From Sphingobacterium haloxyli (GTDB lineage: Bacteria; Bacteroidota; Bacteroidia; Sphingobacteriales; Sphingobacteriaceae), in assembly GCF_002980525.1 (NCBI RefSeq), contig NZ_PVBQ01000005.1:124001-188000 (forward strand): DNA of 64,000 nucleotides. The letters are read 5' to 3'. Positions 1 through 26,606 of this stretch are shown here, piece after piece. Every line of letters starts with the position of its first letter. The stretch's first letter is position 1. A program made the position numbers and the translations under genes. The notes under the pieces were generated by a model, which saw only the letters and a program-made list of their open reading frames with translations, was not told where the DNA came from and ran no database searches.

Positions 1-292
1 TTTTGATTATATATTTGAACGGCTTATCTAGAAAAAATTCTTTCAGGACCTGATCCAATGTTGCATTTTTAACATTGATGTCTACCGGTTCTACATCGTT
101 AAAGATTTCCGGATTATAAAAAAAGCTAAAGTTGGTCTGTTTTCTTATTTCTTCCAACACAACTTTAATGCTACTGTTCTGCTTATTTAACGTGATACGC
201 TGTGCATAGGTAGCAGCGGTCACCTGAACAAATACGCAGGTTAATAATACCATGGTGATTTTCATAGCACGCATGATTGTGCAAAAATTCAT
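1..292 (-). CDS. TonB-dependent receptor with STN domain, 5' part only (cut by left edge)
   Basis: About 97 codons can be read before the window edge. The product begins MNFCTIMRAMKIT, followed by a hydrophobic signal segment and the cleavage-like ATYAQRI. Next comes an STN (secretin/TonB short N-terminal) domain with LEEIRKQTNFSFFYN and VKNATLDQVL. STN domains in the periplasm pass substrate signals from the receptor to a FecR-type anti-sigma factor. The sequence closely resembles the N-terminus of the receptor ending at 12659, so the two are paralogues. Upstream in the same direction lie FecR (417-1607) and an ECF sigma factor (1807-2391), the usual order for sigma-controlled receptors. The start at 292 is preceded by AACAAAAGT, identical to the context of the paralogue at 16267. 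The plug and barrel are outside the window, so the substrate cannot be inferred. Confidence 0.88.
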   Translation of the reverse strand, partial: MNFCTIMRAMKITMVLLTCVFVQVTAATYAQRITLNKQNSSIKVVLEEIRKQTNFSFFYNPEIFNDVEPVDINVKNATLDQVLKEFFLDKPFKYIIK

Positions 293-359
293 ACTTTTGT
301 TGAAGTTAGTTATCTAAATGATGTTTTGACTGCATTATGTTGATAAGCTTAACTATTTA

Positions 360-394
360 GCCAAGTCCCGATGGCCGTCGGGATCTGGCTTTTT
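360..394 (+). terminator. Terminator-like hairpin read on the plus strand, between FecR and the receptor
   Basis: GCCA and TCCCGA (360-371) pair with TCGGGA and TGGC (378-389) around a six-base loop, with one G-U pair and one mismatch. Five T residues follow on the plus strand (390-394). That is intrinsic-terminator shape for plus-strand transcription, yet all neighbouring genes are on the minus strand, where the tract becomes an A-run before the stem. A similar element sits at the same place in the paralogous cluster (16333-16365). It may end an antisense RNA that covers the receptor start; this is inference. Confidence 0.6.
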
Positions 395-416: not shown

Positions 417-1607
417 CTATTCGCTCACTATCAACCTCCTTCCTTTGATTTCGATGTTTATTTCGCGGGTCGATCTTATCATCTCTATCACCGTTGGCAA
501 AGGCATGTTGCGTGATACGATACCGGAGAATTTTTTCCGTTGGAGATGTTCGGGGCAATCGATTTCTACATCATACCAGCGTGCCAGTTGTTTCAATATA
601 TTGCCTAAAGCATCTTTCTCAAAAATAAACTCCCCGTTTTTCCAAGCGATTTTCTCGTGGACATTCGCGGACTGTACACGAATTTGTTTGTCCAATAGCG
701 CTTGTTGGCCCGGTCGCAACAATACAGCATGACCGCTTTCCTTTGCTATAACCCGAACGCTCCCTTCGATAAGTGTTGTTTCCGTAAAGGATCCATCAGC
801 GTAGGCGTTCACGTTAAAATGTGTTCCTAGTACCTGTACTTCCTGTTTGGCCGTCTCTACAACAAACGGAACGTTTCCTTTTGTTGTGTTTGAAGGCAAT
901 TTTGCAACTTCAAAATAAACTTCGCCACTCATCTTTACACGTCGTTCACTGTCATTGAAGTAAATGGGGTACGTTAATGAAGATGCTGCATTCAGCCACG
1001 CTTTGGAACCGTCCGGTAAGATAATGCTGTATTGACCCCCTTTTGGCGTTTCTAGGCTATTGTAGACAATTTCTGACGCGACGGTTTTCTCAGGACTGTA
1101 AATAATCATACCATCACCTGTTTTTCGGATTTCTATACCGTCTTGTTTAATAATTTTTCCTTCATCAGCACTAGACAAAGACACCGTACTGCCATCCCCT
1201 AACCTTAAAATAGCTTTATCGCTGCCGGGGAGAATAGCCGGGATATTCGTGTCGGTGGCCAGCCTATCATCTTCCGTCTTATCCACGGAGAAGTAAAATG
1301 GCAGGCCGGCTAAGATGACGACGCCAGTGAATATTGCTGCGTAACGCATAAGCCTGAATACTGAAGATGATTTCTTGGTTTGTGTTTTCCTTATCTTGGC
1401 AAACAGCTGTTCCTTAACGCGGATGGCGTCAGCGGGCGTTATATCGTTTGGCGTTGATTCCTCCTGCACCCAATCTCCGCGTGTTAATTCTTCCAAAACC
1501 TCTTGGGCATTTGGTAATTGGAGTAACTCCTGGATACGTTCGTATTCCTTTTCTGTGAACTCCTTATCAATAAATTTTCTTAAAAGTACTTTGTCCGCTT
1601 CTTGCAT
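417..1607 (-). CDS. FecR-family anti-sigma factor
   Basis: This 396-residue inner-membrane protein should hold its partner ECF sigma factor (1807-2391) inactive until the TonB receptor signals through its STN domain. The N-terminal cytoplasmic anti-sigma region spans about residues 1-80. A single membrane helix at about 86-106 (MRYAAIFTGVVILAGLPF) follows. The periplasmic FecR domain begins near 178 with ETPKGGQYSIILPDGSKAWL, and a DUF4974-type C-terminal domain covers about 310-394 (WKNGEF, LARWYDVEI). The layout and length match Bacteroidota FecR proteins. The paralogue at 16392-17579 shares the DGSKAWLNAASSLTYP core. The gene lies 199 bases after the sigma gene and 124 bases before the receptor start. 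The ATG start at 1607 is clear. Confidence 0.94.
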   Translation of the reverse strand: MQEADKVLLRKFIDKEFTEKEYERIQELLQLPNAQEVLEELTRGDWVQEESTPNDITPADAIRVKEQLFAKIRKTQTKKSSSVFRLMRYAAIFTGVVILAGLPFYFSVDKTEDDRLATDTNIPAILPGSDKAILRLGDGSTVSLSSADEGKIIKQDGIEIRKTGDGMIIYSPEKTVASEIVYNSLETPKGGQYSIILPDGSKAWLNAASSLTYPIYFNDSERRVKMSGEVYFEVAKLPSNTTKGNVPFVVETAKQEVQVLGTHFNVNAYADGSFTETTLIEGSVRVIAKESGHAVLLRPGQQALLDKQIRVQSANVHEKIAWKNGEFIFEKDALGNILKQLARWYDVEIDCPEHLQRKKFSGIVSRNMPLPTVIEMIRSTREINIEIKGRRLIVSE

Positions 1608-1806: not shown

Positions 1807-2391
1807 CTAGGAAATCAAAAGGAGGAAAGCGAATAGATAGGTGCCGAAAGATTTAAGGCTAGAACGTAAAATCTTCAGCGCAGCAGAGATATGCCCTTCG
1901 ACGGTATGTTTGGAAATATCCATCTCCTGCGCTATTTCAGCGTATGACATGCTGTTTTCCCGACTTAATTCAAAGGCTTTCCTTCTTTGGGGGGAGAGCT
2001 TATAAAGGGTTTTCCGGTAGGCTTTTATGACATCAGCCGAATGGAGGGCGTCGTCTGGAATATCACAGGAAATCAAGCGGCTTTCATCAATGGCGTGAAT
2101 GTCAACATGTAAGGGAACTTTTTTACGTAGATGTTTTAGACATTGGAAATGTATAGCTTTAAATAGGAAGTTGGATACACTTTTCTCGATAACAATGGTT
2201 TTTCGTCTCTGCCAGATATCGAAAAGCACATCGGCGGCTAGTTCCTCTATAAGGTATTGGTCATCGAAATACCTTTTTCCTACTCTATATAGCTTGGGGA
2301 TATAACGGTCAAAGAGCTCTCCATAGGCTTTTAGATCGTCCTCTTGACAATACTCAAATAACTTGATGTCTGACAGTTTCTTGTAATCCAC
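1807..2391 (-). CDS. RNA polymerase ECF sigma factor (FecI-like)
   Basis: This 194-residue sigma-70 family protein of the extracytoplasmic-function class should direct RNA polymerase to the promoter of the linked TonB receptor. Region 2 is seen around residues 18-65 (AYGELFDRYIPKLYRVGKRY, then ADVLFDIWQRR). Region 4 lies around 128-175 (LSPQRRKAFELSR, MSYAEIAQEMDISKHTVEGH), a helix-turn-helix for the -35 element. The last residues (YLFAFLLLIS) form an unusual hydrophobic tail; the sigma factor at 17720 also ends hydrophobic (LLIVACFLSV). The predicted start is GTG at 2391, and no better in-frame ATG lies close upstream. FecR follows 199 bases downstream. The membrane-prone tail is seen directly; any role for it is a guess. 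Confidence 0.92.
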   Translation of the reverse strand: MDYKKLSDIKLFEYCQEDDLKAYGELFDRYIPKLYRVGKRYFDDQYLIEELAADVLFDIWQRRKTIVIEKSVSNFLFKAIHFQCLKHLRKKVPLHVDIHAIDESRLISCDIPDDALHSADVIKAYRKTLYKLSPQRRKAFELSRENSMSYAEIAQEMDISKHTVEGHISAALKILRSSLKSFGTYLFAFLLLIS

Positions 2392-2581: not shown

Positions 2582-2608
2582 CTAAAGAAAACATATATCG
2601 TTATCATA

Positions 2609-2854
2609 TCAGGTTGTTTTTTTATTCATTTTCCTCAGGGCCAAAACGGCCATCGGACGGATTTTCTTCCTTAGTTTATTGTAGTCGACAGCGCTTTTTT
2701 CCGCTTGCGCCACCAAGTGTGCCGTACGCTGGTAAGCGTCGGTCAGCTCTCGCTCGATGCTCTGCCAATGGGCGGCATCTCCACTCTGTTCTGCCAGCAT
2801 GCGTAAGCATTCCATTAAACGTCTGTGTCCATTTCTGTCTATTCCTATTGCCAA
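2609..2854 (-). CDS. Hypothetical small basic protein (81 codons, doubtful)
   Basis: The frame runs from a TTG at 2854 to a TGA at 2609, and an in-frame TAG lies a short way upstream. The predicted peptide is charged and probably helical (AHWQSIERELTDAYQRTAH, then YNKLRKKIRP), with no signal peptide, membrane helix or recognised motif. ATG starts exist only inside it. It lies between the GC-rich hairpins after the Oar-like gene and the sigma-factor leader. It could be a small helical protein or a chance frame, and I cannot assign a function. Confidence 0.3.
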   Translation of the reverse strand: MAIGIDRNGHRRLMECLRMLAEQSGDAAHWQSIERELTDAYQRTAHLVAQAEKSAVDYNKLRKKIRPMAVLALRKMNKKTT

Positions 2855-2896
2855 TGTTACTCTTATTCTTTTGTCCTACTTCCAGATAACAATACC

Positions 2897-2957
2897 GGGC
2901 CGGCCGCTGATTTCCGGCCCGAAGTATTGTACCGCCCCGGCTGATGGAACGGGGCGG
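2897..2957 (-). terminator. Tandem GC-rich hairpins after the Oar-like receptor
   Basis: Two strong stems lie just past the receptor stop at 2974. CCGCCCCG (2932-2939) pairs with CGGGGCGG (2950-2957), and GGGCCGG (2897-2903) pairs with CCGGCCC (2914-2920). They probably end the long minus-strand operon. Neither has a good U-run on the minus strand, so the call rests on stem strength and position. Their GC content matches the unusually GC-rich gene before them. Confidence 0.5.
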
Positions 2958-2973
2958 GTTTCTTTGTATGTTA

Positions 2974-6225: not shown

Positions 6226-6297
6226 TTCTGTATTTTTTCAGTAAATTTTGCTTTGTGAAAACTTCGTGTACAATGCTTTAAATTTCCTTTTCCATTA

Positions 6298-7284: not shown

Positions 7285-7299
7285 CTTTTCGTCCTTTTC

Positions 7300-8583
7300 T
7301 TATTTAACATGCCACATACTAAAATCCTTCGGTACAATCAAACGGTCTACCACATGTATTGGCCCTTGGAAGGTGTTGATATTAGATTCGATGACCGTGG
7401 CCGGTTCGGCAGCGGATCCTCTTTGTTTTACCGTCACGCGACCCGAAGCGTCCGCACCGAAATCGTAGTCCAAATAAATGGGGAAGTTAACCGTGGATTC
7501 TATGACATAGTTGCCCAGCGTGCCGTTGTTCAACGAACGGTCATAGAAAACTGCATTCGCACCTTTGCTATGCGCTATTACAGAAATACCGGGGACAAAC
7601 GCCACCCAATCAATATCCATCTCGACTCTGCTCCGACTAATCCTATGGGTGACCAACAGGCTATCCGAAGGTGTGCTGGCATTATTCCCAAACCGAACTT
7701 GTGACCGTGCGTTTAGTAACCTAAGGTCCTCTTCGGTATGTATACCTATCTCCTGAAAAGCGGCGTCGGTAGGCGCAAAAAGTGTAAACCGTATGACGTG
7801 GGGTAAAAGCTCCTGGCTGCGAAATCCTCCTTCTGTAACTGCATACCAGTCGGTAATGTATTTATATGGGGGAAAAATAGGCGGGCTGAGATTAGAAACG
7901 GTGTAAGCATCATAAAGCAAACCGTTAAGTTCCATCGCCCGTACAAAAAGGCTGAATCGCCCGTCTTCGCGCAGCACATCGATCATCTGGTTGGTAGGCC
8001 GTTCGATCACCTGATCTAACGGAACGATCGTCCCGTTATCCACCGGAATCCAGTCTGCTGTCGAGACCAATACGCCGTTATCTATGAGTTGGTCTTCTCC
8101 TACCAGCTGTAATGTATGCTGATAACAATACGGGGCGGCTATCATTATGCTTGCTGATTGGACACCTTCCTGGAGTTCCGGATGTATCAATAAACTGTTG
8201 AACGCCAAGGCAGAAGCAGATTCCCGCAAATGCTCCCGCGTCATGTGATTATTTAGCACATGGTACCGTAAAAACACTTCTAAATCCGCGATGTCTGTGG
8301 CATTGATGATTTCCAGCGTATAACCTGCTGTCTTCATGGCCTCGTCATTGGGCACCAAAAACAGCAATTTGGACTGCGAATACTCCTCCGTAACCACGCG
8401 CTCCATCGCACCACGTTCCCAAGCCGCCCGAAAGAGTGTGTATTCATTGGAGGATGACAATACTTCCCGTAATGATGGGTAATTTTCCTGAGGTATCGGC
8501 TCGCCCAACGGCTCCGGCATAAATTCGTCCGTGCAGCTCCAAAGCCCCAGTAAAGAGAAATATAAGATAATTCGTTTAAACAT
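7300..8583 (-). CDS. Fasciclin (FAS1) domain lipoprotein, two domains (larger, divergent)
   Basis: The signal sequence ends LLGLWSC and the mature protein begins CTDEFMPEP, consistent with a lipoprotein. Of the 427 residues, about 40-190 form a first FAS1 domain (LLFLVPNDEAMKTAG, YHVLNNHMTREHL). About 200-425 form a second with FTLFAPTDAAFQEIG and PIHVVDRLIVPKD. The second domain carries an insertion of roughly 60-80 residues that includes a glycine-rich stretch near YVIESTVNFPIYLDYDFGAD. The gene is the middle of three FAS1 genes, with 23 bases to the one before and 15 to the one after. Its divergence from the neighbours suggests the three bind different partners rather than being recent duplicates. 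No substrate can be inferred. Confidence 0.88.
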   Translation of the reverse strand: MFKRIILYFSLLGLWSCTDEFMPEPLGEPIPQENYPSLREVLSSSNEYTLFRAAWERGAMERVVTEEYSQSKLLFLVPNDEAMKTAGYTLEIINATDIADLEVFLRYHVLNNHMTREHLRESASALAFNSLLIHPELQEGVQSASIMIAAPYCYQHTLQLVGEDQLIDNGVLVSTADWIPVDNGTIVPLDQVIERPTNQMIDVLREDGRFSLFVRAMELNGLLYDAYTVSNLSPPIFPPYKYITDWYAVTEGGFRSQELLPHVIRFTLFAPTDAAFQEIGIHTEEDLRLLNARSQVRFGNNASTPSDSLLVTHRISRSRVEMDIDWVAFVPGISVIAHSKGANAVFYDRSLNNGTLGNYVIESTVNFPIYLDYDFGADASGRVTVKQRGSAAEPATVIESNINTFQGPIHVVDRLIVPKDFSMWHVK

Positions 8584-8606
8584 TGTTCTGTTTTTTTAAT
8601 TGAACT

Positions 8607-9698
8607 TTAGTTAATAAGCGCTTCTTCGGGATAGACCAAGAGTCCCGTGATGGCATGGACTACGCCGTTTTCCGCCTTATAATCTGACTGGCTCGGGCTG
8701 ATGTGATCTGCCGTGCGGATGGGGGTATTGCCTCCTACCGGCTCAGTAGCGATGACAAACGGCTGCCTTGCTGCATTGCTCGCTATTCCAAAACTAAATG
8801 CTTCGGCTCCCGGGACCGGTCCCCGTAGGAAAGTATTTCCAAAATATCCCGACCCCCCGGATCGTCCGAAAATTTCCAAGTCGGAAAGAAAGACGTGATT
8901 GCTTACGATATACACGCCCAGCAGCTGCCTGCTGCGGTAGTCAGTGGGATCCAAGGCCCGAATGGTTTCTATGGTCAGTCCTAAGCTTTCAAAGCCTTCA
9001 TTGACTGGCGCAAACACCGTCCAAGGACCTGGCTCACTCAAACGGTCCCATTCGCCAAAGTGTTTAAGGGCTGCGACAAAAATACTGAACTCTGGACGGT
9101 CTTCCAGTATATCCTGCACCGTACCGGAGTTGTATTTCAACACTTTATTGAGCATATGTAGAACGCCATTTGCCAGTAGCGCGTTTTGGTATGCCTGCGG
9201 AGCCTGCGCGCCATTGACAGCCAAGTAATCAATCACACGGATACTACTTGAATGATCTATTTGCTGATATCCCAGGTGCAGCTGCCTTCCCGTGAGATTC
9301 TCATACATATTATCAATGGTCAGATCCGGAATATCTTCCCGGTACAGCCGCCGCGGCAGGATGTGGTAAAGCATCATAAAGCGCAGGCTGTCCTGGTTCA
9401 TCGCAGCAAAGTCTGAAGCACGTACAATCCCAATATCGTTGAATGCCTGATTACTGGGGGCAAAAAGTGTAAACGGCCCTTCTCCACGCAGGGTATCCAG
9501 CAATCCAGCAGTTTCCATTGCCGCATGGAAAAGCGTCAGTTCATAATTGTTCGCCGTAAAATCAGCGGCATTGCGATAATTCTCGCTTTCTATGTATACG
9601 TCCAGGTCCTCGTGTTGGCAGGAATTCAGCAGTAAAAAAGAAAAAGTAACTCCTAAAAACACCAGCGAACGTGCGCTGTCTGATATCTTGTGTTTCAT
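8607..9698 (-). CDS. Fasciclin (FAS1) domain lipoprotein, two domains
   Basis: The signal peptide reads VFLGVTFSFLLLNSC, with the lipid-modified cysteine followed by QHEDLD. The 363 residues contain two FAS1 domains. The first (about 40-190) has FTLFAPSNQAFNDIG, YHILPRRLYREDI and NGVLHMLNKVLK. The second (about 195-355) has WTVFAPVNEGFESLG and NGVVHAITGLLVYPEE. These are the most canonical FAS1 motifs of the three proteins here. The gene follows the unrecognised lipoprotein ending at 9715 after 16 bases, so it is in the same operon. The ATG at 9698 follows AGAT, as at other genes of this operon. Confidence 0.9.
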   Translation of the reverse strand: MKHKISDSARSLVFLGVTFSFLLLNSCQHEDLDVYIESENYRNAADFTANNYELTLFHAAMETAGLLDTLRGEGPFTLFAPSNQAFNDIGIVRASDFAAMNQDSLRFMMLYHILPRRLYREDIPDLTIDNMYENLTGRQLHLGYQQIDHSSSIRVIDYLAVNGAQAPQAYQNALLANGVLHMLNKVLKYNSGTVQDILEDRPEFSIFVAALKHFGEWDRLSEPGPWTVFAPVNEGFESLGLTIETIRALDPTDYRSRQLLGVYIVSNHVFLSDLEIFGRSGGSGYFGNTFLRGPVPGAEAFSFGIASNAARQPFVIATEPVGGNTPIRTADHISPSQSDYKAENGVVHAITGLLVYPEEALIN

Positions 9699-9714
9699 AT
9701 CTGGTATCTCCTAT

Positions 9715-10890
9715 CTAATAAATCGGTTGCGGATATCTTCGTTGTACAGTTGTCAAATAAACATTCCCGTTCACCACTTCAACGCTATTCACGACACCGA
9801 ATGTTCGTGGATTGTGGGTTCCGGAATGGACATTGACCACCAACCCGGGTAAAATGTGACCTCCTGTCGGGTTATACCGGGCATGGTCAAATATCACAGC
9901 GCGATACAGGTTGTTCAGCCCCGGAAAAATTGTCCCGCTTTCACCCGGTAGCGGAAAAAGGTTGCTGTTCCTCGGATCGATAGGAGGTGCACAGAGTTGC
10001 AGATACTGCCAGGTGTCGGTATAAACATGGTTGCCGTGCTGCGGAAACACGGGAAAAGCATGATAAAGAGTGACCCTCGTATCCGTATTGTTCCTATAAA
10101 CCGCTCCCGCATATTGGAAGCTAAATTCCGGAATACGTTGGTGGCTAATCTGCCCCTGTTCGTTCGTATTCACCGCCATGTGGGTAAGAAACACATTCAT
10201 GGTGTCCCGTACACCGGAGGAATTACCGGGCGCTTGCCAAAATCCCTTGGCGCTCAGGTTGTAAAAGTTGACATAGGATAGGGTGTCCGAAAAAGGCTGC
10301 TTGTGAAAATTTTCCTGTCGTACATACAAAGCATTTTCCTTCGTCGTAAAATCCCGCTGCAACACATGGATAGTATAGACCTCCCGCTCCGTGAGCGATA
10401 TAGTGGTATCCAGAAACACCCGTCTTTGTTGTTCATCAGGCAGTTGACCGAATGGCACGTCACTGATTGGCCGCGACATAAACAGGAAACGACGTGTACC
10501 CGAGGAGACTTGCGCCCAGTTGGTTAAATCAAATCCATTCAAAATGGGCGCGGTAGGTACCAATTCCTTACCGGGGTATTCCTGATTAAATCGGGAAGTA
10601 CTTACACCGGCATGTGCTGCATGTGGAGGGGCATAAGCGCCCCTTTTGTCCAAAAAATCTCCTACGGCCAATCCGCCCACTGGCTTTCCCGTTTCATCAA
10701 ATTCCGGATCAATGAACATGCAGAAGAATGGCTGCGGTTCTTCTTTATTATTGATGTCTACTTCGTATGTCAGATTATTGAACACCCGGATATAGGCGGG
10801 TTCTTCTACGATACGGTAGTCGGTTTTGGTGCAACCCGCAAAGTAAAAAGGTAAAAGTAAAAAACAGATGAATCTACTTGCCTTTCTCAT
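9715..10890 (-). CDS. Unrecognised lipoprotein next to the DUF4397 protein
   Basis: The start at 10890 (MRKASRF) is preferred because it gives a textbook lipoprotein signal (ICFLLLPFYFAGC) and is preceded by AGAT, as at 12656 and 9698. An ATG at 10911 would add seven residues. The mature protein begins with an Ig-like strand pattern (YIRVFNNLTYEVD) and includes repeated segments such as YTIHVLQRDF and SYVNFYNLSAKGFW. These faintly recall DUF4397 modules, but I cannot assign the family firmly. The C-terminus has a segment on valued pairs (NSVEVVNGNVYLTTVQRRY). The gene lies between a DUF4397 lipoprotein and three FAS1 lipoproteins, which suggests a surface or periplasmic partner of the receptor upstream. 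Confidence 0.8.
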   Translation of the reverse strand: MRKASRFICFLLLPFYFAGCTKTDYRIVEEPAYIRVFNNLTYEVDINNKEEPQPFFCMFIDPEFDETGKPVGGLAVGDFLDKRGAYAPPHAAHAGVSTSRFNQEYPGKELVPTAPILNGFDLTNWAQVSSGTRRFLFMSRPISDVPFGQLPDEQQRRVFLDTTISLTEREVYTIHVLQRDFTTKENALYVRQENFHKQPFSDTLSYVNFYNLSAKGFWQAPGNSSGVRDTMNVFLTHMAVNTNEQGQISHQRIPEFSFQYAGAVYRNNTDTRVTLYHAFPVFPQHGNHVYTDTWQYLQLCAPPIDPRNSNLFPLPGESGTIFPGLNNLYRAVIFDHARYNPTGGHILPGLVVNVHSGTHNPRTFGVVNSVEVVNGNVYLTTVQRRYPQPIY

Positions 10891-10919
10891 ATCTAATATT
10901 TTACGTTTCATATTATTAA

Positions 10920-12656
10920 CTATTTCGTATGTTTTACCACCATAAATCTGGCGTTATTATTTCCTTGCGCATCCCGTCCCATAAGCGCAATGGTATAGAT
11001 ACCGGGTTCGTGTACCGGCACCGTGCGATTGGCCTCCGTATACAGTTCTTTTCGGGCAATCAATGCGTCACTAGATAGGTGGGGTATATGCTGTAACCAG
11101 TCGCCGGGTGATCGGCCCGGCGCAGAAGCATATGCTAAGAAACTATATGGAGCCGAATTCCATGTATAGCGGACATAGGGGTTGTCAACAAGCGGTACGC
11201 CGGGCTGTAAGTTGGACGCCGTGCTAGTCGTAGACGTGCTGCTGCCAAATGGGAGCCCGTTACCATCCGTAACAGCCAGGTAAGGAATATCCGGACACAG
11301 GTTAAGAAAGCGAAAATCAAACGGGAAACTCAATCTTCGCCTGTCTACCGAGGCATCGCCGCCTTCTTGCGGATTCCCCACGAACCAGGAACCGCTGAGG
11401 TTGTTGCTGACCAACACGGCGGCAACCCGTCCGTCTGAACCCGGATATACCCACAATGTATAATTGCCCCCGGAGGCCAGTGTTTCCCGGAGGTTAAGCA
11501 ATTGTTGGCCGGATGCATCATGTACGTTTAGTTCCCGTTCACCGGCAATCACATTCACATAGTCACTCGATTTTCCGCTATCTACTTCTTCGGTTGCTTC
11601 CCCACCGGCATTTATACGCAATTGAAGCCGACTGTCGGGCAGGGCGTTGGCCAGCTGTACACGGGTGTAGACGCGATTCAAAGGTTCACTTCCGTCAGCT
11701 ATCACGTGGAAACTGTTCTGCCAGTCAGTGAAATCATCACGACCATTGCTCCAGGTGAACTGAGCCGGGTGTATCACGACGGTATAAATTCCCCCGGGTT
11801 GAAAGGTCTTTATGGATGCATAGGTGATATGGGAGGCTTGGGTGGAAGCTACTGCCAATGATGAAGTACCAGGATGTATACGCTGATCTTGGGGACGGTC
11901 GTTTTGCTCGACCGAAGGCACTTGTCTACCATCCGCTGTCAGCACCTTGAATTGATAGGTGCCATAGGGCACTTCGACGTATTCGGACCAAGCACCCGTG
12001 GGGATATTGCTCGTAGCTTCTGTAGAAACAGGCGTTCCGTCCGCGAAAGCCAGGGTCATCGGCCCAACCAGATTTTCCATTGGTGAGGAGGCTTTTGTTG
12101 GTCTTGCCGCAAAGTTAACGATCCGTATTTTGAAATGATCGGGTTTTGACGGCGCCGTAATATCACGCGGTACCTCAACGACCGGTCGATTCCATTCCAC
12201 CAGCTGCTCATGCTGAATCAGCAAGTAGTAATCTTTGGGATTGGCATAGTCATCCTCGGCCACAAAATCTACCTCTTTGATCACAACCTCGTCATAAATA
12301 GAACGGTTGGTCGTTTTCACTTCCGCTTTTCCATCTGCTCGGAACAGATCCTGTGGCATCGCCCAAGTCAACCCCAGGCGCCCGTCCTTGGGAAAGTAGT
12401 GGGTGCCCGGAGGCGTTGTTTCCTCGGGCGGTATGTAGCCCGGGCGTACCGGAGGTAAAAAGAAGTTGGTCAGACTGTCACCGTTGACCAGTAGCTGTAT
12501 ATTGGTGGACAGATTGATCAACCGCACACTGCTGGCTTCTGCCGCTTCGGTATTCCTGCGGTAGTCGTACCGGTAATCTATATTTTCCTTTTTGCAACTA
12601 TTAAAAAGTAAAAAGGAAGATATAAGAAATAGAAAATATATAAATATTTTTTTCAT
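10920..12656 (-). CDS. DUF4397-domain lipoprotein
   Basis: This 578-residue lipoprotein (signal SSFLLFNSC, then KKENIDYRYDY) contains several beta-rich modules of the DUF4397 type. SSVRLINLSTNIQLLVNG is at about 42-60, FKIRIVNFAARPTKAS at about 178-195, and RVQLANALPDSRLQLRING-like sequence at about 330-350. Each module ends with a strand phrase such as GGIYTVVIHP, GGNYTLWVYPG or PGIYTIALMGRD. DUF4397 proteins of Bacteroidota have no established function and are usually exported. The stop of the TonB receptor and the start here are two bases apart (12659/12656), so translation is probably coupled. This is where a SusD-like lipoprotein would sit in a SusC/SusD pair, so the protein may be the receptor's lid or partner; that is inference. 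Confidence 0.88.
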   Translation of the reverse strand: MKKIFIYFLFLISSFLLFNSCKKENIDYRYDYRRNTEAAEASSVRLINLSTNIQLLVNGDSLTNFFLPPVRPGYIPPEETTPPGTHYFPKDGRLGLTWAMPQDLFRADGKAEVKTTNRSIYDEVVIKEVDFVAEDDYANPKDYYLLIQHEQLVEWNRPVVEVPRDITAPSKPDHFKIRIVNFAARPTKASSPMENLVGPMTLAFADGTPVSTEATSNIPTGAWSEYVEVPYGTYQFKVLTADGRQVPSVEQNDRPQDQRIHPGTSSLAVASTQASHITYASIKTFQPGGIYTVVIHPAQFTWSNGRDDFTDWQNSFHVIADGSEPLNRVYTRVQLANALPDSRLQLRINAGGEATEEVDSGKSSDYVNVIAGERELNVHDASGQQLLNLRETLASGGNYTLWVYPGSDGRVAAVLVSNNLSGSWFVGNPQEGGDASVDRRRLSFPFDFRFLNLCPDIPYLAVTDGNGLPFGSSTSTTSTASNLQPGVPLVDNPYVRYTWNSAPYSFLAYASAPGRSPGDWLQHIPHLSSDALIARKELYTEANRTVPVHEPGIYTIALMGRDAQGNNNARFMVVKHTK

Positions 12657-12658
12657 AT

Positions 12659-15600
12659 CTAAAACAAATTATAACTGAAACCCAACATGACCTCGGCTCC
12701 GCGTTTGTAACTTCGGTTGATATACTCATTGCCGTACCATCTTCCTTGTGTTTTCGGGTTGGCGTAAACCGTCTTGATGTCCGGATTGAGGATATTCTTT
12801 GCATAACCCTTAAATTGTATCCTGTTGTTGATGCGCTGGGTAAAGACCAGATCCAACATAGCGAAAGGACGGGTGTAGAGATCCGGTTCTCCGGTCATAT
12901 TGATCTGCACAAGACGCTCGCCTACTATGTTGAACGTAGCCGTTAGGTCCGTCCCCCATTTTTTGTTGTCGTAGTTAAGCCAGGCGTTGATGCTGTACGG
13001 CGCCTGTTCAAATAGAGGGCTGTTCTCAGGTGCATTCCGGTCGATAGACCAGTTGGCTGCCAGACGCTCGGGTGTTTTCTTGACCTCGGACTGTGCAAGC
13101 AGGAGGTTGGAACCGATAAAGAAGCCTTGCGCAGGATCCCAGATGGTTCCCAAATCCTTGACCACCTCAAATTCCAGTCCCCAGACACGTCCGGTATTGG
13201 GATCATTTTCAAATCGAATGACCGGAAATTCCGGAAAAGTAGCTGCCAGCCCTTCGGTCTCCAAACTGAATACTTTGACCAACTGGTTATTGATCTCCTT
13301 CCCAAAGGCAGAAACCGCAATGACTTCGCCCGGATTCGGAAACCACTCCCAACGGAAGTCCAGATTCTTGGTAGATTGGTTGACTAAATTTGGATTTCCA
13401 ACGACTAAGCCCATCTGGAAGGCGTCAAACTCATACACATTGGTGAGTTCCCGCAATTCCGGCCGAGCCAAAGTGGTATTGAAGGCCGCACGGAAGTTCA
13501 TATTGTCGTTCAGTGTATAGGTAGCGTTGACCGAATAGAACGGTTTGTAGCCCTGCTTGTAGGCCGAGTTGGGGTTCTGTGGATTGAGATTTACGGTACC
13601 GTCCGCATTCGCCGCCTCAAGTGAAGGATCTAGAAAGACATTCGCCGTATCGACCGCTGATTGTATATTGGTATTTTCAAAACGTACTCCTCCGGCTATA
13701 CGGAACTCTTCGGTTAATTTGAGATCCAACATCCCATAGAATGCATTGGTCTCGAAAAAGCCCCGGTAGTTATTGGGTGATTTCTGGATATTATACAAGA
13801 ATCCGCCCACCGGGAAGTCGCCTTCACCGACTGCCCCCGAAGGCAGCTGTAGACCAACTACCTCGTTACTCACTAGTCGATCCAGATTACCGCTTACGTC
13901 GTATAGGGGCAAAGCCGAAGTAATGCCAGTATGATCATAGCTACCGGCATAGTTCGAAAAATTCGATCCGGGAAGGAAAAGCACATTCTCACCGAACTCG
14001 CGTTCACGGCTTAGGTAGTTAAAGCCTACTTTCAGTTCTTGTTTAATCCCCAAAAATGGAAAGGGAACTGCCAAATCAGCTTTATAGTTATAGTTCACCT
14101 CCTCCAAGTTCCGCCAGCGACGACCATTGGGATCGGCCTGCATAATCCCATAAGGACCAAAACCATTCACATATCCAGAGGTAAGGGCGTAATAACGATC
14201 GGTGTATACATATTCACCATCACCGATCGCTCCTTCTCCCAGTACGGGTCTGTAATATACCCCTCCATAGCGCGGCGCGTAATCCACGAGGTTTGCAAAG
14301 CGATAGTCCGGATCGTTCTGCTCAGAGGTAGAGGTAGCTAGGTTATAGCTCAGCCGCGGCGAATAAGCTCCCCGCAGGAACTTGTGCTCGCCCTGCAGGT
14401 TGAAGGTATTCAACGTGCGGTAGGTTTGTTTCAAGGAATAGGTGGTGCTATTGACCTCCCCCGGGAGACCTGCATAATAATACCCTCCACGCAGGTTGGT
14501 AGCCCGGTTTTCTCCGCCCCAGCTACCCATATACTGAAAGCTGATTTCGTGGCGCGGATCGAAACGGTAGGTCAGTCCGCCCAGCACACCATAGTTCAAC
14601 GTTTCGACTCCTGTATGTTCGCGGTAAGTCTGGTACGGTCCCATCACGATATTATTGGTGGTCGTGAAGTTGGGGATATTCCGCTGACTGTAGATATATG
14701 GATTGCCGGTCACGACACCTTGATAGATACTGTACTGTGCCAAGTCGCCATCGTAGATGTTGCTGGTACGGCGATAGTAATTTCCGCCAAGAATGACGCC
14801 CAGCTTATGTTTATCAAACACATCATAGCTATTCCCGAAGGTTGCTGAATACAACTGGTTCAGCGGCGCTTGTTGGCCCTGGGTAGTCAGCACCGGGTCG
14901 AATCCCTGCATAATGCCGTTGATACGACTTACTTCCTGTCGCACGTCTGCATTGTAGCCACTTTGCGCAATCATATTTTGGATGGTTCCCAGTCCACCGG
15001 GATATTGTTGCGACAGATTTAAAAAATCCTGTGACAGGTTTTTATTGTTGATTTTCGTCCCCAACACCCCCATGTCGCTGTTCCAGAAACTGTTGTAGTT
15101 GCCGCCTATACCGATATTGGAGTTGAATCCCGTCTGGGCGATAACCTCAAAGGTCATCTTGTCCGGCACGGATTTGGTCTTCAATTCCACAATCCCCGAA
15201 GCGGCATCGGCTGGTTTGTCTGGTGTGACGGTCTTGTAAATCGTGATGTTGTCCAATAGAGAAGCAGGTACCAGGTCCAGCGGAATCGCACTGCGATCCG
15301 GATCGGAAGACGATAATCTCACACCATTCAATTGTCCGATGACGGAGCGGTCTCCCATTCCACGGACGGCCACGTACTTATCATCGGTAACGGTTACTCC
15401 GGCCACTCTTTGTAGAGCTTGGGTCGTGGTAATACTTCCCGTACGCTCGATCATCTGTGCTGAAATGGCATCCTGTACAATCGATGCGTTCTTACGTTCT
15501 TCCAATACCGCTATTTCGGTATTGGTACGACGACGCGCCTGTACCGTGACGGCTACCTCTTCCAACTGAGCGGTTGTTTCGTACATACGCACAGTAATGT

Positions 15601-16267
15601 TTTTATTATTGGGGCCGACGCGCACTTCCTGTGGGTCCAATCCAAGAGAAGTAAAAGTGAGCGTTGTGCCTGAGGCCGGTACCGTAATGGTGAACTGTCC
15701 ATTAGGATTGGTAACTGTCACGGTGTTCGATCCTTTTATCCGTACAGATACCCCTAGGAGGGCTCGGCCATCTGCCGCGCTAACCACTCTACCGGTAATC
15801 TGGAGCTGTTGCTGCAAGGAGGGCTTGGAGTCAACCTTCGCTTTTTTTGTGATAATAACCGATCCTGCTTCAATAACGTAGGTGTATGGCTGATTTGCAA
15901 AACATGCATTCAGAACCTGATCGAGGTTTGCATTTTTCACGTGTATATCTACCGGCTTGGCGTCCTTGAAAATATCCAAGTTGTAAAAGAAATCGTAGTT
16001 GCTTTGTTTGCGGATTTCTTCCAGCACAGCATAGATACTACTGTTCTGCTTACTTATTGTGATGCGTTGCGCATAGGTTGAAGCGCTCAACTGTACAAGC
16101 AAACATGTCATTAATACCATGGTGATTTTCATAACACGCATGATTTGATAAAAATTTCTATGTGTATTACTATTCTTTAATGGCCATAGAGAATATTCAT
16201 GAGAAAATAATTTGTTTTTTAAAAATCTCATGGAACCTGCATAGCAGGTTTCAAATGAATATTTCAT
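12659..16267 (-). CDS. TonB-dependent receptor with STN and carboxypeptidase-like domains
   Basis: This 1202-residue outer-membrane receptor has a 43-residue N-terminal extension before the MRVMKIT signal core (alternative ATG at 16141). An STN domain follows at about 70-130 (YAVLEEIRKQSNYDFFYN). Then come a carboxypeptidase-regulatory-like domain at about 150-235 (ITGRVVSAADGRALLGVSV), a plug at about 240-400 (SAQMIERTGSITTTQALQRV, RGMGDRSVIGQLNGVRL), and a barrel ending LGFSYNLF. The STN domain and the sigma/FecR genes upstream mean it senses its own substrate. It lacks the DEVVVVGYG TonB-box pattern of SusC and has no SusD after it. A DUF4397 lipoprotein follows instead. The extension contains TCYAG, encoded by a 7-base hairpin at 16234-16250. 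The substrate is unknown. Confidence 0.93.
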   Translation of the reverse strand: MKYSFETCYAGSMRFLKNKLFSHEYSLWPLKNSNTHRNFYQIMRVMKITMVLMTCLLVQLSASTYAQRITISKQNSSIYAVLEEIRKQSNYDFFYNLDIFKDAKPVDIHVKNANLDQVLNACFANQPYTYVIEAGSVIITKKAKVDSKPSLQQQLQITGRVVSAADGRALLGVSVRIKGSNTVTVTNPNGQFTITVPASGTTLTFTSLGLDPQEVRVGPNNKNITVRMYETTAQLEEVAVTVQARRRTNTEIAVLEERKNASIVQDAISAQMIERTGSITTTQALQRVAGVTVTDDKYVAVRGMGDRSVIGQLNGVRLSSSDPDRSAIPLDLVPASLLDNITIYKTVTPDKPADAASGIVELKTKSVPDKMTFEVIAQTGFNSNIGIGGNYNSFWNSDMGVLGTKINNKNLSQDFLNLSQQYPGGLGTIQNMIAQSGYNADVRQEVSRINGIMQGFDPVLTTQGQQAPLNQLYSATFGNSYDVFDKHKLGVILGGNYYRRTSNIYDGDLAQYSIYQGVVTGNPYIYSQRNIPNFTTTNNIVMGPYQTYREHTGVETLNYGVLGGLTYRFDPRHEISFQYMGSWGGENRATNLRGGYYYAGLPGEVNSTTYSLKQTYRTLNTFNLQGEHKFLRGAYSPRLSYNLATSTSEQNDPDYRFANLVDYAPRYGGVYYRPVLGEGAIGDGEYVYTDRYYALTSGYVNGFGPYGIMQADPNGRRWRNLEEVNYNYKADLAVPFPFLGIKQELKVGFNYLSREREFGENVLFLPGSNFSNYAGSYDHTGITSALPLYDVSGNLDRLVSNEVVGLQLPSGAVGEGDFPVGGFLYNIQKSPNNYRGFFETNAFYGMLDLKLTEEFRIAGGVRFENTNIQSAVDTANVFLDPSLEAANADGTVNLNPQNPNSAYKQGYKPFYSVNATYTLNDNMNFRAAFNTTLARPELRELTNVYEFDAFQMGLVVGNPNLVNQSTKNLDFRWEWFPNPGEVIAVSAFGKEINNQLVKVFSLETEGLAATFPEFPVIRFENDPNTGRVWGLEFEVVKDLGTIWDPAQGFFIGSNLLLAQSEVKKTPERLAANWSIDRNAPENSPLFEQAPYSINAWLNYDNKKWGTDLTATFNIVGERLVQINMTGEPDLYTRPFAMLDLVFTQRINNRIQFKGYAKNILNPDIKTVYANPKTQGRWYGNEYINRSYKRGAEVMLGFSYNLF

Positions 16268-16332
16268 ACTTTTGTTGTGGTTAAATTATCTGATTATGTG
16301 TAATGGCATTAGCGGATATACTTAACATTGTG

Positions 16333-16365
16333 GCCAAGGATGTTCCCGCATCTTTGGCTTTTTTT
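16333..16365 (+). terminator. Terminator-like hairpin read on the plus strand, between FecR and the receptor
   Basis: GCCAAGGATG (16333-16342) pairs with CATCTTTGGC (16349-16358) around TTCCCG, with one G-U pair. Seven T residues follow at 16359-16365. The polarity is that of a plus-strand terminator, although genes on both sides are on the minus strand. The equivalent place in the left cluster holds the same kind of element (360-394), and both T-tracts are followed by TTAAGC or TAAGC. An antisense transcript starting in the receptor's 5' end could stop here. Confidence 0.65.
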
Positions 16366-16391
16366 AAGCATATTTTTTAATCGTTATCGTA

Positions 16392-17579
16392 TCAATCGGT
16401 CACGATCAACCTCCTTTCATGTAACGTTATATTAATGTCGTTTGTCGATTCCATAATTTTGATGAGCGACGACAGTGGCTTGGAACGAGACACAATACCC
16501 GCAAAGCGCAGTTTGCCCAAATGCGGTGGGCACTGGGTTTCGACATCGTACCAGCGAGAAATGTGGCGCAGGACGCTTTCAAGGCTCTCGCCTTTGAAAA
16601 CGAAATCTCCCCTCTGCCATCCGAGCTGCTGATCGATATCTGCAGGCTGCACCGTTAGGACATCGGACAGTAAGGCCTGTTGCCCCGGCTTAAGCAAGGT
16701 CGACTGCCCATTTTTGAACGCGGTAACCTTGACGCTCCCCTCCACCAACATCGTCTTTAAATAAGGTTCGTCTACATAGGCATTCACATTGAATTTGGTT
16801 CCCAGAACCGATATCTCCTGTTTGTCGGTCTCCACGAAAAAAGGTACATTTCCATCGCCATCGGTGCGCTTCACTTTTGCGACCTCAAAATAAACTTCCC
16901 CGGTCATCTTCACCCGTCTTTCGTCGGCTGGGAAGCGAACAGGATAAGTCAGTGAAGATGCTGCATTCAACCAAGCTTTTGATCCATCAGGCAGGGTAAT
17001 CCGGTACTGTCCGCCATTGGGTGTCATTACACTATTATAAGTATTACTGGCCTGGGCCACCTTGGCACCTGCTTTATAGACTATTTCTCCTTCGGTAGTT
17101 TTCTCAACTTCTACGCCGCCTTGCTCGGTTAATTTTCCGTTAGCAACATCTGATAGGGAAACGGTATTTCCATCCGATAGCATCAATATTGCTTTATCAC
17201 TCCCTGGAAGCACTTCCTCCTCGTGTTCAGCAAGCCGCTCTTCGGATGGTTGTGTAGATGTACGAACGACTACGAATACAGCTGATATAATAAATAGGGC
17301 AACTGCAGCAGCATATCCGGACCACCGCATACGCCGAAAGATCGAGCGATCATTGCTTGATTGTATATGCTTTTCCTGAAAACGTCTATTCCATGCACGG
17401 CTTTCCTCTTCTTCCGGTTCTACTGGGCTGAATTGAGCAAAATCCTCCTCCAACAATTCCTCCAACGCATGCTTCCATTCCGGCTGAAACAGGAATTGCC
17501 TGACCTGTTCCAGTTCTTCGGCATTACATTCGTCCCTTACGTATCTTGCCAAAAGGTCCCTATCTATTTTCTTATCCAT
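16392..17579 (-). CDS. FecR-family anti-sigma factor
   Basis: This 395-residue protein is the paralogue of the FecR at 417-1607. Its N-terminal cytoplasmic domain (about 1-82) is notably acidic (FSPVEPEEEESRAW). A membrane helix lies at about 87-106 (WSGYAAAVALFIISAVFVVV). The periplasmic FecR domain begins near 180 (TPNGGQYRITLPDGSKAWL), and a DUF4974-like C-terminal domain follows (WQRGDFVFKGESLESVL, ISRWYDVETQCPPHL). It should bind the STN domain of the receptor at 12659-16267 and restrain the sigma factor at 17720-18310. It starts 141 bases after the sigma gene and ends 125 bases before the receptor, the same spacing as the left cluster, so the two three-gene units arose by duplication or share strict constraint. 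Confidence 0.94.
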   Translation of the reverse strand: MDKKIDRDLLARYVRDECNAEELEQVRQFLFQPEWKHALEELLEEDFAQFSPVEPEEEESRAWNRRFQEKHIQSSNDRSIFRRMRWSGYAAAVALFIISAVFVVVRTSTQPSEERLAEHEEEVLPGSDKAILMLSDGNTVSLSDVANGKLTEQGGVEVEKTTEGEIVYKAGAKVAQASNTYNSVMTPNGGQYRITLPDGSKAWLNAASSLTYPVRFPADERRVKMTGEVYFEVAKVKRTDGDGNVPFFVETDKQEISVLGTKFNVNAYVDEPYLKTMLVEGSVKVTAFKNGQSTLLKPGQQALLSDVLTVQPADIDQQLGWQRGDFVFKGESLESVLRHISRWYDVETQCPPHLGKLRFAGIVSRSKPLSSLIKIMESTNDINITLHERRLIVTD

Positions 17580-17719
17580 TGACAGTCGACTTATATCGTT
17601 CTATAAGGTATACCGTAAAAAAGCGAGGGACTCCCCATAAAGAAAATGACCTTTATTTCAATAAAGCTACAAATCGTTGATTTTCAGATATAAAAATTTA
17701 AAAAATAAGAATATTTAGA

Positions 17720-18310
17720 TTATACCGACAGGAAGCAGGCAACTATCAGTAGGGTCATATCGATATACCTTGACATGTAGGCACGCAGGGACGTTTTCGC
17801 ACTATGCAGGTGCCTGTCGACGGTTTTAACGGCTATTCGCAGGTTTTGGGAAATCTGCTGATAGGATTGGGCTTCCTCATGTCTCATCCGATAAACTTTC
17901 TGCTGCATAGGGGTAAGCGAATGGATACCTTGCTCGTAGAGCTGATTTAATTCACCAACCAGGGTCGGGCTGTCCGAACGCAGCCCACTTTCCGTATTTT
18001 CAGCCACAGCATCCAGAGGTACATGCTCTGTTTTCCGCCTGCGGTAATGGTCTACGAGCGATGCTTTCAATAAATGGAAAAGAAAGGGACCAAGTGAGGT
18101 CGCTTTCTCATCAAGTACATCACGGCGGTGCCACACTTTCAGCATCACGTCCATTACAAGCTCGTCTGCTATAAACATGTCGTTGGTGTGTCGAAAAGCA
18201 AACTGTTGCAACCGCGCTACATGAATACGATAAAGTCGGTCAAAGGCCTTATCGTCTCCTTTGCGCCACCTCTCTATAAGGCTTATTTCGTCATTGACTT
18301 TGCCGAACAT
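17720..18310 (-). CDS. RNA polymerase ECF sigma factor (FecI-like)
   Basis: This sigma factor of the ECF class should drive the receptor operon below it. Region 2 is at about residues 20-75 (DKAFDRLYRIHVARLQQFA, DELVMDVMLKVWHRRD). Region 4 is at about 130-180 (LTPMQQKVYRMRHEEAQSY, QQISQNLRIAVKTVDRHLH). I place the start at the ATG of MFGKVNDE (18310). An in-frame TTG at 18322 is possible, but it lies only about 12 bases from a -7 box at 18334-18341 and would leave almost no leader. The C-terminus is hydrophobic (TLLIVACFLSV), as in the left-hand sigma factor. FecR follows 141 bases downstream. Confidence 0.92.
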   Translation of the reverse strand: MFGKVNDEISLIERWRKGDDKAFDRLYRIHVARLQQFAFRHTNDMFIADELVMDVMLKVWHRRDVLDEKATSLGPFLFHLLKASLVDHYRRRKTEHVPLDAVAENTESGLRSDSPTLVGELNQLYEQGIHSLTPMQQKVYRMRHEEAQSYQQISQNLRIAVKTVDRHLHSAKTSLRAYMSRYIDMTLLIVACFLSV

Positions 18311-18333
18311 AAAATGATCCAAATTTTACGTTT

Positions 18334-18341
18334 CAAAATTA
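18334..18341 (-). promoter_or_regulatory. Candidate -7 box for the sigma/FecR/receptor unit
   Basis: On the minus strand the bases read TAATTTTG, an exact match to the TAnnTTTG -7 element described for Bacteroidota housekeeping promoters. The expected TTG about 19 bases upstream is present only as a T-run, so the match is partial. The box lies 24 bases before the ATG at 18310. The rest of the 18323-18563 gap shows only a weak inverted repeat (AAGATT/AATCTT, near 18541-18564) after the next gene. Confidence 0.45.
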
Positions 18342-18563
18342 GCCAATGACCTATTTGCCTAAAATTATGTTTTGATTAAATTACTGTTAATAAGACGCAC
18401 CCGCGTTGTCAGGCATCCGACGTGCTAATCGCTGAACTTGACAAGTGGCCTGCGTTGGTTATCTACTTGCAAACTCACAAATATGAAATCGAACGAATAA
18501 TAATCAATCCGGTTAGACGGAGTCGACCACAAAATCCACCTAAGATTATCTAAAGGAAAATCT

Positions 18564-20489
18564 TTAAATAGCGTCTTTTTCGATGGATAGATTATATTTT
18601 CCTCTATCCAAACCGTATACCTGTGTCATAAATTCGTAGAACGCCGCATAATTCTCTTTGGGATATGTTCCTTCCCGTAATTGAATCATGCGGTAGCTAG
18701 TCAACACACCATTAGATATCGAAATACGTAATTCGTATACCCCCATTTCGGTTTCCAGTCGTTTATTAACGGGTATGGCTGATGCGTCGATATCTTCCGG
18801 GAGTGTATAGTAGATAACGTCGATATCCGTATAACCGCGGTTAATATATAAATCGTTGATTCGGTTTCGTGTTGCGGGTATCGGTTCAGCTTGATTAAAT
18901 ATATTGGTGTGTAAAATAGCGTGGGCATCCGACTTTACCATGTGGTTTTTTACAGTGAGATCTACGGTTTCACGAAACGCAATCGAATCTTTATCTTCTG
19001 AAATCATTTCGTAATCAACCTTCCGGAAGCTGATATTATCGATATCATACCATTTTCTGATGTTTTGTATTTGATCCTGTTGATTTAAAAAAGTGTTGTA
19101 ATAATGGTTGTCAAACTGTCCTCCCTTAAATGTAGTCGTTAAACTTCCTTCTAATGAGCCGTCCGCAAGTATTCTAAAGTGGCCTTCCCGATACTGTAAA
19201 CTTTCGGTGTCGCTGAATTTGGGTGTACGGAGTATTTTTCCGCCCTCCGCGCTACAGGCGATAACAAGCCGATCATCCGTAAAATTGCTTAAAAATCCGA
19301 AGGGGATTTTCTGATTAGTGCATTCCAGCCAGGTCGTATCGTTTTCAAAAGGTATACATAGGATAATGTGGTTTCCATCAGAAACATTCGCAAAGTCGGC
19401 AGTAATGTCTCTTTTATAGGAACCCGCTTCTACAACGCAGTAATAAGACGGAATATGCACGACATCTAATAAACTCTGCATATAGTTGACCAATGCCTTA
19501 CAGTCACCATATCCCAACTTATCGACCGTTTCAGCCGGAAAAGGTTCAATTCCCCCTATTCCCACCTGTATACTTATGTATCGGGTTTTATCCTGCATAT
19601 ATTTATATAATGCTTTCGCTTTCTCTTTAGGTGACTCTATATCCTTCGTCAATTCCTGTACACGCCTAACGGTCGCCTCTGGCAGTTCGCGTTTGTCTGC
19701 CAGGAGATAATCATAATTCCATTTCCCAAGTTCCTGCCAGTCCCTGAAATGACCTGTTTTCTTAAAGTACTGAAAGTTTTCTGGAACGATTCTGACATGC
19801 GTAGCATAGCGGTGGCGGGGAGGACTATAGGGTTCAGAACGCCGTGCTGCTATATCGTTTAGTGTCCACCTGTATATTTTTGTCTTTCCATTCTCCTCTA
19901 CCGCCGCTTCCCCTTTATAATTTTGTTGATGTATGCGAATTTTATCGGCTGGCCGACACGTAAAGACATAGCTGCTCCGTTCAATAGCCACGTCGTAATC
20001 GTAGTCTGGTGCCCATGACGGAATTAGCAGGTTTTGGTTCTCTTTAATTTCCACGCTGTAAACAATGGTATAAGGATAGCTGTATACCGCCGGGCTATAG
20101 TCTTTCATACGAGTGTCGTCATATAGATTACTCTGACCGGACGCACTCCTATCCCGAAAATCTTTCAATGAGAATTTTCCAATTGGAATGCCAAATTCAT
20201 TAAATATTTCCCCTTTTACACTTCGTATCTTTCTCGATTTATTATAATATAATTCGATAGCCCCGTGCTCCTCCCCGTTCTTATTATGGACAGTCACGGC
20301 GCGTGTTATCCGGATAGTGACATCGGTAACACTTTTCATATCAACTTCAAGACATTCGTCTCTAACAGTTGCGTCTGCTCGTTCTTTTAAGTGATCACTA
20401 AGGACGTCCACTGCATATATGTTTTGCCCCTTTAAACATACGTGCATAGCGCTGGCTAATACCAATATTAGCCATATTTTTTTTGTCAT
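18564..20489 (-). CDS. DUF3857 protein with transglutaminase-like domain
   Basis: The 641-residue exported protein has a signal peptide (LVLASAMHVCLKGQ). It then has an N-terminal DUF3857 beta-rich domain (about 40-210; ITRAVTVHNKNGEEHG, YPYTIVYSVEIKENQN). A transglutaminase-like cysteine-protease core follows at about 270-400. The candidate catalytic cysteine is in LGYGDCKALVNYMQSLL, the histidine in SDGNHIILCIPF, and the acid in DTTWLEC. A C-terminal beta domain completes the length. Family members are widespread in Bacteroidota and poorly characterised; processing or cross-linking of envelope proteins is often suggested. It begins three bases after the related gene ending at 20493, so the two form an operon. 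Unlike its neighbour, it keeps the cysteine. Confidence 0.88.
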   Translation of the reverse strand: MTKKIWLILVLASAMHVCLKGQNIYAVDVLSDHLKERADATVRDECLEVDMKSVTDVTIRITRAVTVHNKNGEEHGAIELYYNKSRKIRSVKGEIFNEFGIPIGKFSLKDFRDRSASGQSNLYDDTRMKDYSPAVYSYPYTIVYSVEIKENQNLLIPSWAPDYDYDVAIERSSYVFTCRPADKIRIHQQNYKGEAAVEENGKTKIYRWTLNDIAARRSEPYSPPRHRYATHVRIVPENFQYFKKTGHFRDWQELGKWNYDYLLADKRELPEATVRRVQELTKDIESPKEKAKALYKYMQDKTRYISIQVGIGGIEPFPAETVDKLGYGDCKALVNYMQSLLDVVHIPSYYCVVEAGSYKRDITADFANVSDGNHIILCIPFENDTTWLECTNQKIPFGFLSNFTDDRLVIACSAEGGKILRTPKFSDTESLQYREGHFRILADGSLEGSLTTTFKGGQFDNHYYNTFLNQQDQIQNIRKWYDIDNISFRKVDYEMISEDKDSIAFRETVDLTVKNHMVKSDAHAILHTNIFNQAEPIPATRNRINDLYINRGYTDIDVIYYTLPEDIDASAIPVNKRLETEMGVYELRISISNGVLTSYRMIQLREGTYPKENYAAFYEFMTQVYGLDRGKYNLSIEKDAI

Positions 20490-26595: not shown

Positions 26596-26606
26596 AATCT
26601 TTATAC

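Follow-up and report, generated by a model that had tools for sequence, protein, structure and literature searches.

A question raised by the bacteria considered here, which possess dozens of look-alike receptors each accompanied by its own sigma factor and FecR protein, is how cross-activation is avoided and how the threshold of each system is set. The window, by which we mean the whole analysed stretch of 64,000 nucleotides from Sphingobacterium haloxyli (contig NZ_PVBQ01000005.1, positions 124,001–188,000), contains two sigma/FecR/receptor units, both on the minus strand, with the receptor gene of the first one cut by the window start. In both units, the gap between the FecR gene and the receptor gene holds a terminator-like hairpin pointing against the direction of the genes, so what might be terminated there?

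A terminator hairpin pointing against the receptor gene

An earlier examination of the letters alone (the sequence-only reading) had described a 10-base stem followed by seven T residues on the plus strand of the second unit and had proposed that the first unit has the same arrangement. Both observations proved correct. The 10-base stem is the core of a 12-pair stem (table 1), and the first copy carries its hairpin and T-run at 359–394, beside its FecR gene. The segment 16332–16365 has the stable stem directly followed by a T-run that defines an intrinsic terminator, and its hairpin ranks first by pair number among the 22 terminator-like sites found by scanning window positions 1–20000. The number of such sites is, however, at the level expected by chance (20.9 in shuffled sequences), and other FecR–receptor loci were therefore needed as a test. 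No curated Rfam family reached its gathering cut-off in the window or in 20 related loci (82,966 bases), and a search of positions 16100–16500 at loose E-values returned only five matches, all to unrelated families and all under their cut-offs.

Table 1. Coordinates of the genes and predicted elements of the two sigma/FecR/receptor units in the window.
Feature	Position	Strand	Basis or remark
TonB-dependent receptor with STN domain	12659..16267	minus	Pfam; putative target of the predicted RNA
Predicted sigma-A -7 box TACTTTTG (consensus TANNTTTG)	16267..16274	plus	begins opposite the A of the receptor's ATG
Predicted antisense small RNA, ~87 nt	16279..16365	plus	+1 placed by the box, 3' end by the T-run
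5' stem-loop of the predicted antisense RNA (GTTAA...TTAAC)	16280..16326	plus	MFE structure
Terminator hairpin	16332..16359	plus	12 pairs including G-U, 4-base loop; between FecR and receptor
T7 run of the terminator	16359..16365	plus	
FecR-type anti-sigma factor	16392..17579	minus	Pfam PF04773 + PF16344
ECF-type sigma factor	17720..18322	minus	Pfam
First copy: -7 box TACTTTTG	292..299	plus	located at the truncated receptor's start codon
First copy: predicted antisense RNA, ~91 nt	304..394	plus	hairpins 305–353 and 359–390
First copy: FecR	417..1607	minus	Pfam
First copy: ECF sigma factor	1807..2391	minus	Pfam

Hairpins of the same polarity in other FecR–receptor gaps

The genome of S. haloxyli itself provided 49 FecR_C matches, eight of which were left out (seven in frames of more than 1,100 residues, one in a 470-residue frame), and in all 41 loci retained the next ORF after the FecR gene lies on the same strand. 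We further used 80 loci from named taxa (Pedobacter, Chitinophaga, Dyadobacter and others), which came from a FecR-alignment scan and were picked regardless of hairpins. Dropping the gaps shorter than 60 nt (6 of the 41 own-genome and 3 of the 80 named loci) left 35 own and 77 named long gaps. An antisense hairpin with a T-run is present in 22 of the 35 own gaps, with dinucleotide shuffles predicting 0.67, and in 58 of the 77 named gaps, where shuffles predict 2.8; its sense-pointing counterpart occurs in one and two gaps, respectively. Among the closest homologues (the 30 best-matching FecR loci from 60 genomes of the genus, the window being one of them), 29 gaps have an antisense hairpin and none a sense one, and a set of 27 same-genus loci subjected to a looser scan yielded 23 antisense and six sense hairpins. 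The absence of the structure from other FecR–receptor gaps, which the sequence-only reading had named as the outcome that would defeat it, is thus not what we find: the antisense-pointing terminator recurs at the same place and with the same polarity, while the stem sequences of the own-genome hairpins vary widely.

The length of the gap is reflected in the type of the receptor, as an STN domain was detected (at E up to 0.01) in 30 of the 35 own-genome receptors behind long gaps and in one of the six behind short gaps. The predicted RNA described below thus accompanies receptors of the trans-envelope signalling type. As a separate observation, the FecR_C model (PF16344) also matches the N-termini of 13 of the 35 long-gap receptors of this genome, i.e. 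the C-terminus of the anti-sigma factor resembles the signalling region of the receptor.

A putative promoter on the receptor start codon

The two units had also been noted to share a AACAAAAGT-ATG sequence at the receptor start. Read on the plus strand, it becomes CAT-ACTTTTGTT and contains TACTTTTG, a -7 promoter box of the Bacteroidota type; the sigma-A consensus given for this phylum in PMC9723704 is TANNTTTG, with the box occupying positions -12 to -5. Of the 35 ORFs in the window that encode 200 residues or more, the receptor gene 12659–16267 is the only one with the box at its start codon. Beyond the window, the box occurs on the antisense strand at the start codon in 23 of the 35 own gaps (in 15 of them at one exact offset), in 54 of the 77 long named gaps (offsets -1, 0 and -5) and in 25 of the 30 gaps of the closest homologues, with the strict box being absent from the start codon in 12/35 own, 23/77 named and 15/27 same-genus gaps. 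A point against reading the box as a promoter is the weakness of the -33 element: of 82 sequences, six have TTTG at the appropriate spacing.

Start codons of Bacteroidota are usually preceded by A-rich, G-poor leaders, and the box is read from those very bases, so AACAAAAGTATG might simply be the sequence context of translation initiation, and the hairpin might be neutral or due to chance. We find this explanation hardly credible. The box accompanies 54 of the 80 named receptors and none of the 199 other ORFs in the same loci, nor any of the nine receptors behind short gaps. Moreover, the offset between the start codon and the same box takes two values that differ by 4 nt, and in three loci (L209, L214 and L216) the receptor start lies 57–76 nt from the box, which is kept together with the downstream hairpin; L214 and L216 no longer have an ATG next to the box but retain the box itself. 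Since the box persists where the start codon has moved or been lost, we interpret it as a promoter rather than a translation signal.

Extent, fold and covariation of the predicted RNA

The most stable structure predicted for the window copy consists of a 5' stem-loop, a 5-base linker and the terminator hairpin. All five sequences tested fold with z-scores between -4.4 and -7.5 (-4.89 for the window copy and -4.48 for the first copy). For a broader view we assembled 109 distinct candidates, having dropped sequences without both the box and a hairpin at a distance of 50–150 nt as well as those with a repeated 5' region; given this selection, the predicted RNAs measure 70–138 nt, with medians of 86–100 nt in the individual sets. 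In 85 of the 109, the 5' region forms a closed stem, compared with 34.5 expected from shuffles.

These features bear on a rival reading of the hairpin, a bare terminator that halts stray antisense transcription from the receptor operon before it enters the FecR and sigma genes, with no dedicated RNA involved. Its polarity and its place before the FecR gene would suit such a function. A roadblock for long stray transcripts, however, requires no box, no 5' stem-loop and no fixed length, and this notion thus appears quite unlikely in view of the -7 box upstream in fixed register with the receptor start codon, the second stem-loop starting at the predicted +1 and the predicted lengths clustering near 87–100 nt. 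The sequence-only reading was therefore right about an antisense terminator and fell short in stopping there, as the box and the 5' stem-loop point to a small RNA gene.

Three alignments were used to look for compensatory changes: A2, with 14 of the homologue stretches; A3, with 48 of 69 references, namely those with a closed 5' stem and a length of up to 118, nine near-duplicates having been removed beforehand; and A4, with 27 more distant loci of the A3 pool chosen for a GTTTGG-type 5' arm. In the 14 homologues, eight of the nine pairs of the terminator stem show changes on both sides; with the 5' stem included the figure is eight of 13, with 94.5% of cells paired, and the covariation score is 0.419 versus 0.228 in shuffled alignments, the nearly invariant 5' stem adding little. 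In the 27 GTTTGG-type loci, 14 of 17 pairs have both-side changes and the score reaches 0.445 (0.214 when shuffled), with slid versions of the same alignment scoring 0.11–0.19. The proportion of paired cells in this alignment, 71.3% in the 5' stem and 92.9% in the terminator, is partly a matter of construction, as the presence of hairpins was a criterion in choosing the sequences of A3 and A4. RNAalifold recovered only the terminator stem from the mixed alignment A3, because the GTTAA and GTTTGG types of 5' stem do not align with each other. The previous suggestion that the structure is under selection gains support from these results, unrelated stems keeping the same place and polarity and showing compensatory changes.

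Distribution of the predicted RNA unit

We built two covariance models: R1 from 48 sequences, restricted to the terminator stem, and R2 from 27 sequences, mainly of one 5' stem type, with both stems. R1 recovered the window copy (16267–16366, 70.2 bits, E 2.6e-8) and the first copy (292–397, 55.9 bits), both being members of its training set, while R2 gave 44.9 bits to the window copy, though this is outside the R2 training set. A search of this kind had been proposed as a check on the hairpin, and in the genome of S. haloxyli all 16 matches of R1 (E ≤1), including seven outside the training set (L032, L033, L037, L038, L039, L046 and L049), and all 12 matches of R2 fall in FecR gaps. One more hairpin of the window (62848–62955, GGCAGGG...CCCTGCC), strong in itself and followed by T-rich sequence on the plus strand, scores 13.5 bits with R1 (E 4.4); it adjoins a GH28 gene (62976–63869) and resembles an ordinary terminator.

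In 41 genomes of the family, R2 matched 25 genomes and 16 of 25 genera, with at least 136 matches among those listed. We inspected 36 of the matched loci (25 from the family search and 11 from the phylum search) with a FecR HMM and found the FecR gene upstream on the opposite strand in every case, at a distance of no more than 250 nt in 35 of them and 278 nt in the remaining one. The placement next to FecR holds in these inspected loci beyond the home genome. The breadth across Bacteroidota that the proposed search had envisaged is another matter, since R2 matched 7 of 118 genomes in a sample of the phylum and 7 of 119 in a sample of the class. A phylum sample of 28 loci, 19 of them with long gaps, contained in these gaps no box (0/19), six antisense hairpins and three sense ones. 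We consequently dropped the idea of a phylum-wide unit; the RNA unit is common near home and rare elsewhere, as seen with a model that overlooks most of the own-genome copies.

Loops of the gap hairpins

The gap hairpins have loops of 6–7 bases. The 7-base loops combine T at the second and A at the sixth position in 29 of 45 cases, compared with 6 of 44 control hairpins from the same loci; a less clear preference in the 6-base loops concerns A next to last (28/45 versus 18/50 in controls). This T2/A6 pattern resembles the U-turn of anticodon loops and is identical when read on either strand. The motif YUNR on its own proved too strict as a rule for the loops: read in the sense direction, 28 of 69 named loops begin with it, where 4.8 would be expected, as do 5 of 30 own ones. 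The two hairpin scans applied to the 77 named gaps differ in their counts, one giving 58 hairpins and the other 70 with loops.

The symmetry of the hairpins, which would form in the sense strand as well, together with the excess of YUNR in the sense loops, could be taken to indicate a structured element of the sense mRNA, such as a leader or intercistronic element with a stabilising or attenuating role, whose antisense polarity would be incidental. It is nevertheless difficult to reconcile such an element with T-runs lying mainly on the antisense strand (58 versus 2 of the 77 named gaps, 29 versus 0 of the 30 homologue gaps) or with a box that persists despite a shifted or altered start codon, and we regard it as improbable.

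A proposed mechanism

Taken with its surroundings, the hairpin is very likely the terminator half of a gene for a cis-encoded antisense RNA of ~87 nt, most likely lowering the expression of the receptor. The hairpins and their polarity, the box and its register, the covariation and the exclusive location in FecR gaps are observations, from which, together with precedent in Bacteroides, we infer the production of the RNA, the start of the receptor mRNA, the pairing of the two and the resulting repression. RNA polymerase with the housekeeping sigma factor would start on the plus strand at the TANNTTTG box overlapping the receptor start codon, and the transcript would form the 5' stem-loop and the terminator hairpin and end at the T-run before the FecR gene. 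Such an RNA would be fully complementary to the stretch of ~90 bases that immediately precedes the receptor start codon; it would most likely pair with a receptor mRNA leader spanning the gap, possibly making first contact via the 6–7-base hairpin loops, and would lower translation or stability of the mRNA, with convergent transcription perhaps contributing. A receptor that can be switched on by its own sigma/FecR pair might thereby be held down until sense transcripts exceed the antisense RNA. Similar RNAs with loop sequences of their own probably restrain the respective receptors at most sigma/FecR/receptor sites in these bacteria.

It is possible, as an extrapolation from the loops, that pairing begins by kissing, with a separate loop for each receptor. 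Kissing requires that the receptor mRNA contain the hairpin, and an mRNA starting inside the gap would lack it. A bolder and more tentative proposal, in which we place somewhat less than even confidence, is that each genome may hold a private set of distinct antisense RNAs, one per sigma/FecR/STN-receptor unit, all sharing a layout in which a promoter on the start codon is followed by a 5' stem-loop and by a terminator hairpin with a 6–7-base loop differing in nearly every copy, and all using this U-turn loop as a kissing address tag. If true, the chromosome would carry a repertoire of mutually orthogonal antisense switches of a kind known from plasmid copy control, and transmembrane sigma signalling would have a second gate, at the RNA level.

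Comparison with known antisense RNAs

The closest parallel by anatomy is the DonS family of Bacteroides fragilis (Cao et al. 2016, as related in PMC7366714), cis-antisense RNAs of 78–128 nt that are divergent to a susC homologue; the same source reports a negative effect of DonS-type RNAs at PUL operons on the receptor gene or PUL. The RNAs predicted here would likewise be encoded antisense to the beginning of a receptor gene, with the predicted 5' end at the start codon; the lengths predicted for them are 87 nt in the window and 70–138 nt among the 109 candidates. They differ in occurring in Pedobacter-, Mucilaginibacter-, Chitinophaga-, Niastella- and Dyadobacter-type genomes and in having a box on the start codon, a two-hairpin shape and U-turn-like loops, so they look like a distinct variant of a DonS-like antisense RNA in a comparison that concerns position and layout. 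DonS is also associated with PULs containing both susC and susD, whereas the gene after the receptor in the window (10920–12656) matches only DUF4397 and not SusD, i.e. the unit is not a standard SusC/SusD pair.

Antisense RNAs associated with PULs have also been recorded in B. thetaiotaomicron (10 in PMC7366714 and 32 in PMC10994844), in a DonS-like orientation and in some cases proven by Northern blots. Many copies per genome and the orientation are features shared with the RNAs proposed here, for which we derived a common model; the treatment of the B. thetaiotaomicron RNAs in these two papers, in the portions concerned with them, describes no common sequence or structure model. As reported in PMC10994844, such antisense RNAs correlate negatively and, in some pairs, positively with their PULs, so repression is not a given.

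Another multicopy group, the FopS and GibS sRNAs, which are linked with RbpB, act at susC translation starts and have sigma-A promoters (according to PMC11697453); our candidates resemble them as multicopy RNAs at receptor translation starts with (predicted) sigma-A promoters. Because there are many paralogues per genome and FopS represses susC mRNAs in trans, one could envisage that the RNAs discussed here act mainly in trans on other receptor mRNAs, the overlap with the neighbouring gene being secondary. FopS, however, is described in the same source as working through one conserved 5' seed. Here the copies differ, 28 of 31 own-genome loops being distinct, and every copy remains opposite its own receptor (full complementarity in cis follows from that by construction), which leaves a predominantly trans-acting role with little probability.

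Antisense RNAs that control plasmid copy number (PMC4485353) share with our predicted cis-acting RNAs the complementary hairpins and loops enriched in U-turn-like sequence; in plasmid systems, YUNR U-turns are reported to help loop–loop pairing, although the system studied in that paper manages without one. There is neither a plasmid nor a replication gene here, and kissing is hypothetical on our side. For Pedobacter, Chitinophaga or Sphingobacterium, a literature search that took in few subscription papers returned nothing on RNAs of this type. The presence of a structured antisense RNA in the majority of units would represent a second, directly testable layer of control, extending the DonS idea beyond Bacteroides, and the covariance model could serve to annotate sigma/FecR/receptor units in new genomes.

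Other features of the window

The receptor starts at 16267 or, if an insertion at its start is not translated, at about 16141. The 42 residues by which the two versions differ seem to come from an insertion of ~113 nt (window 16150–16262), which is bounded by 15-base inverted repeats (87%); a search for a second copy in the same genome found none, so a mobile family is not demonstrable for this single-copy element. Extra sequence of other kinds is present at the same insertion point in L209, L214, L215, L216 and L217. Finally, the window includes a pair of genes for a SusC-like receptor and SusD (24643–29705), with no FecR gene seen directly adjoining it.
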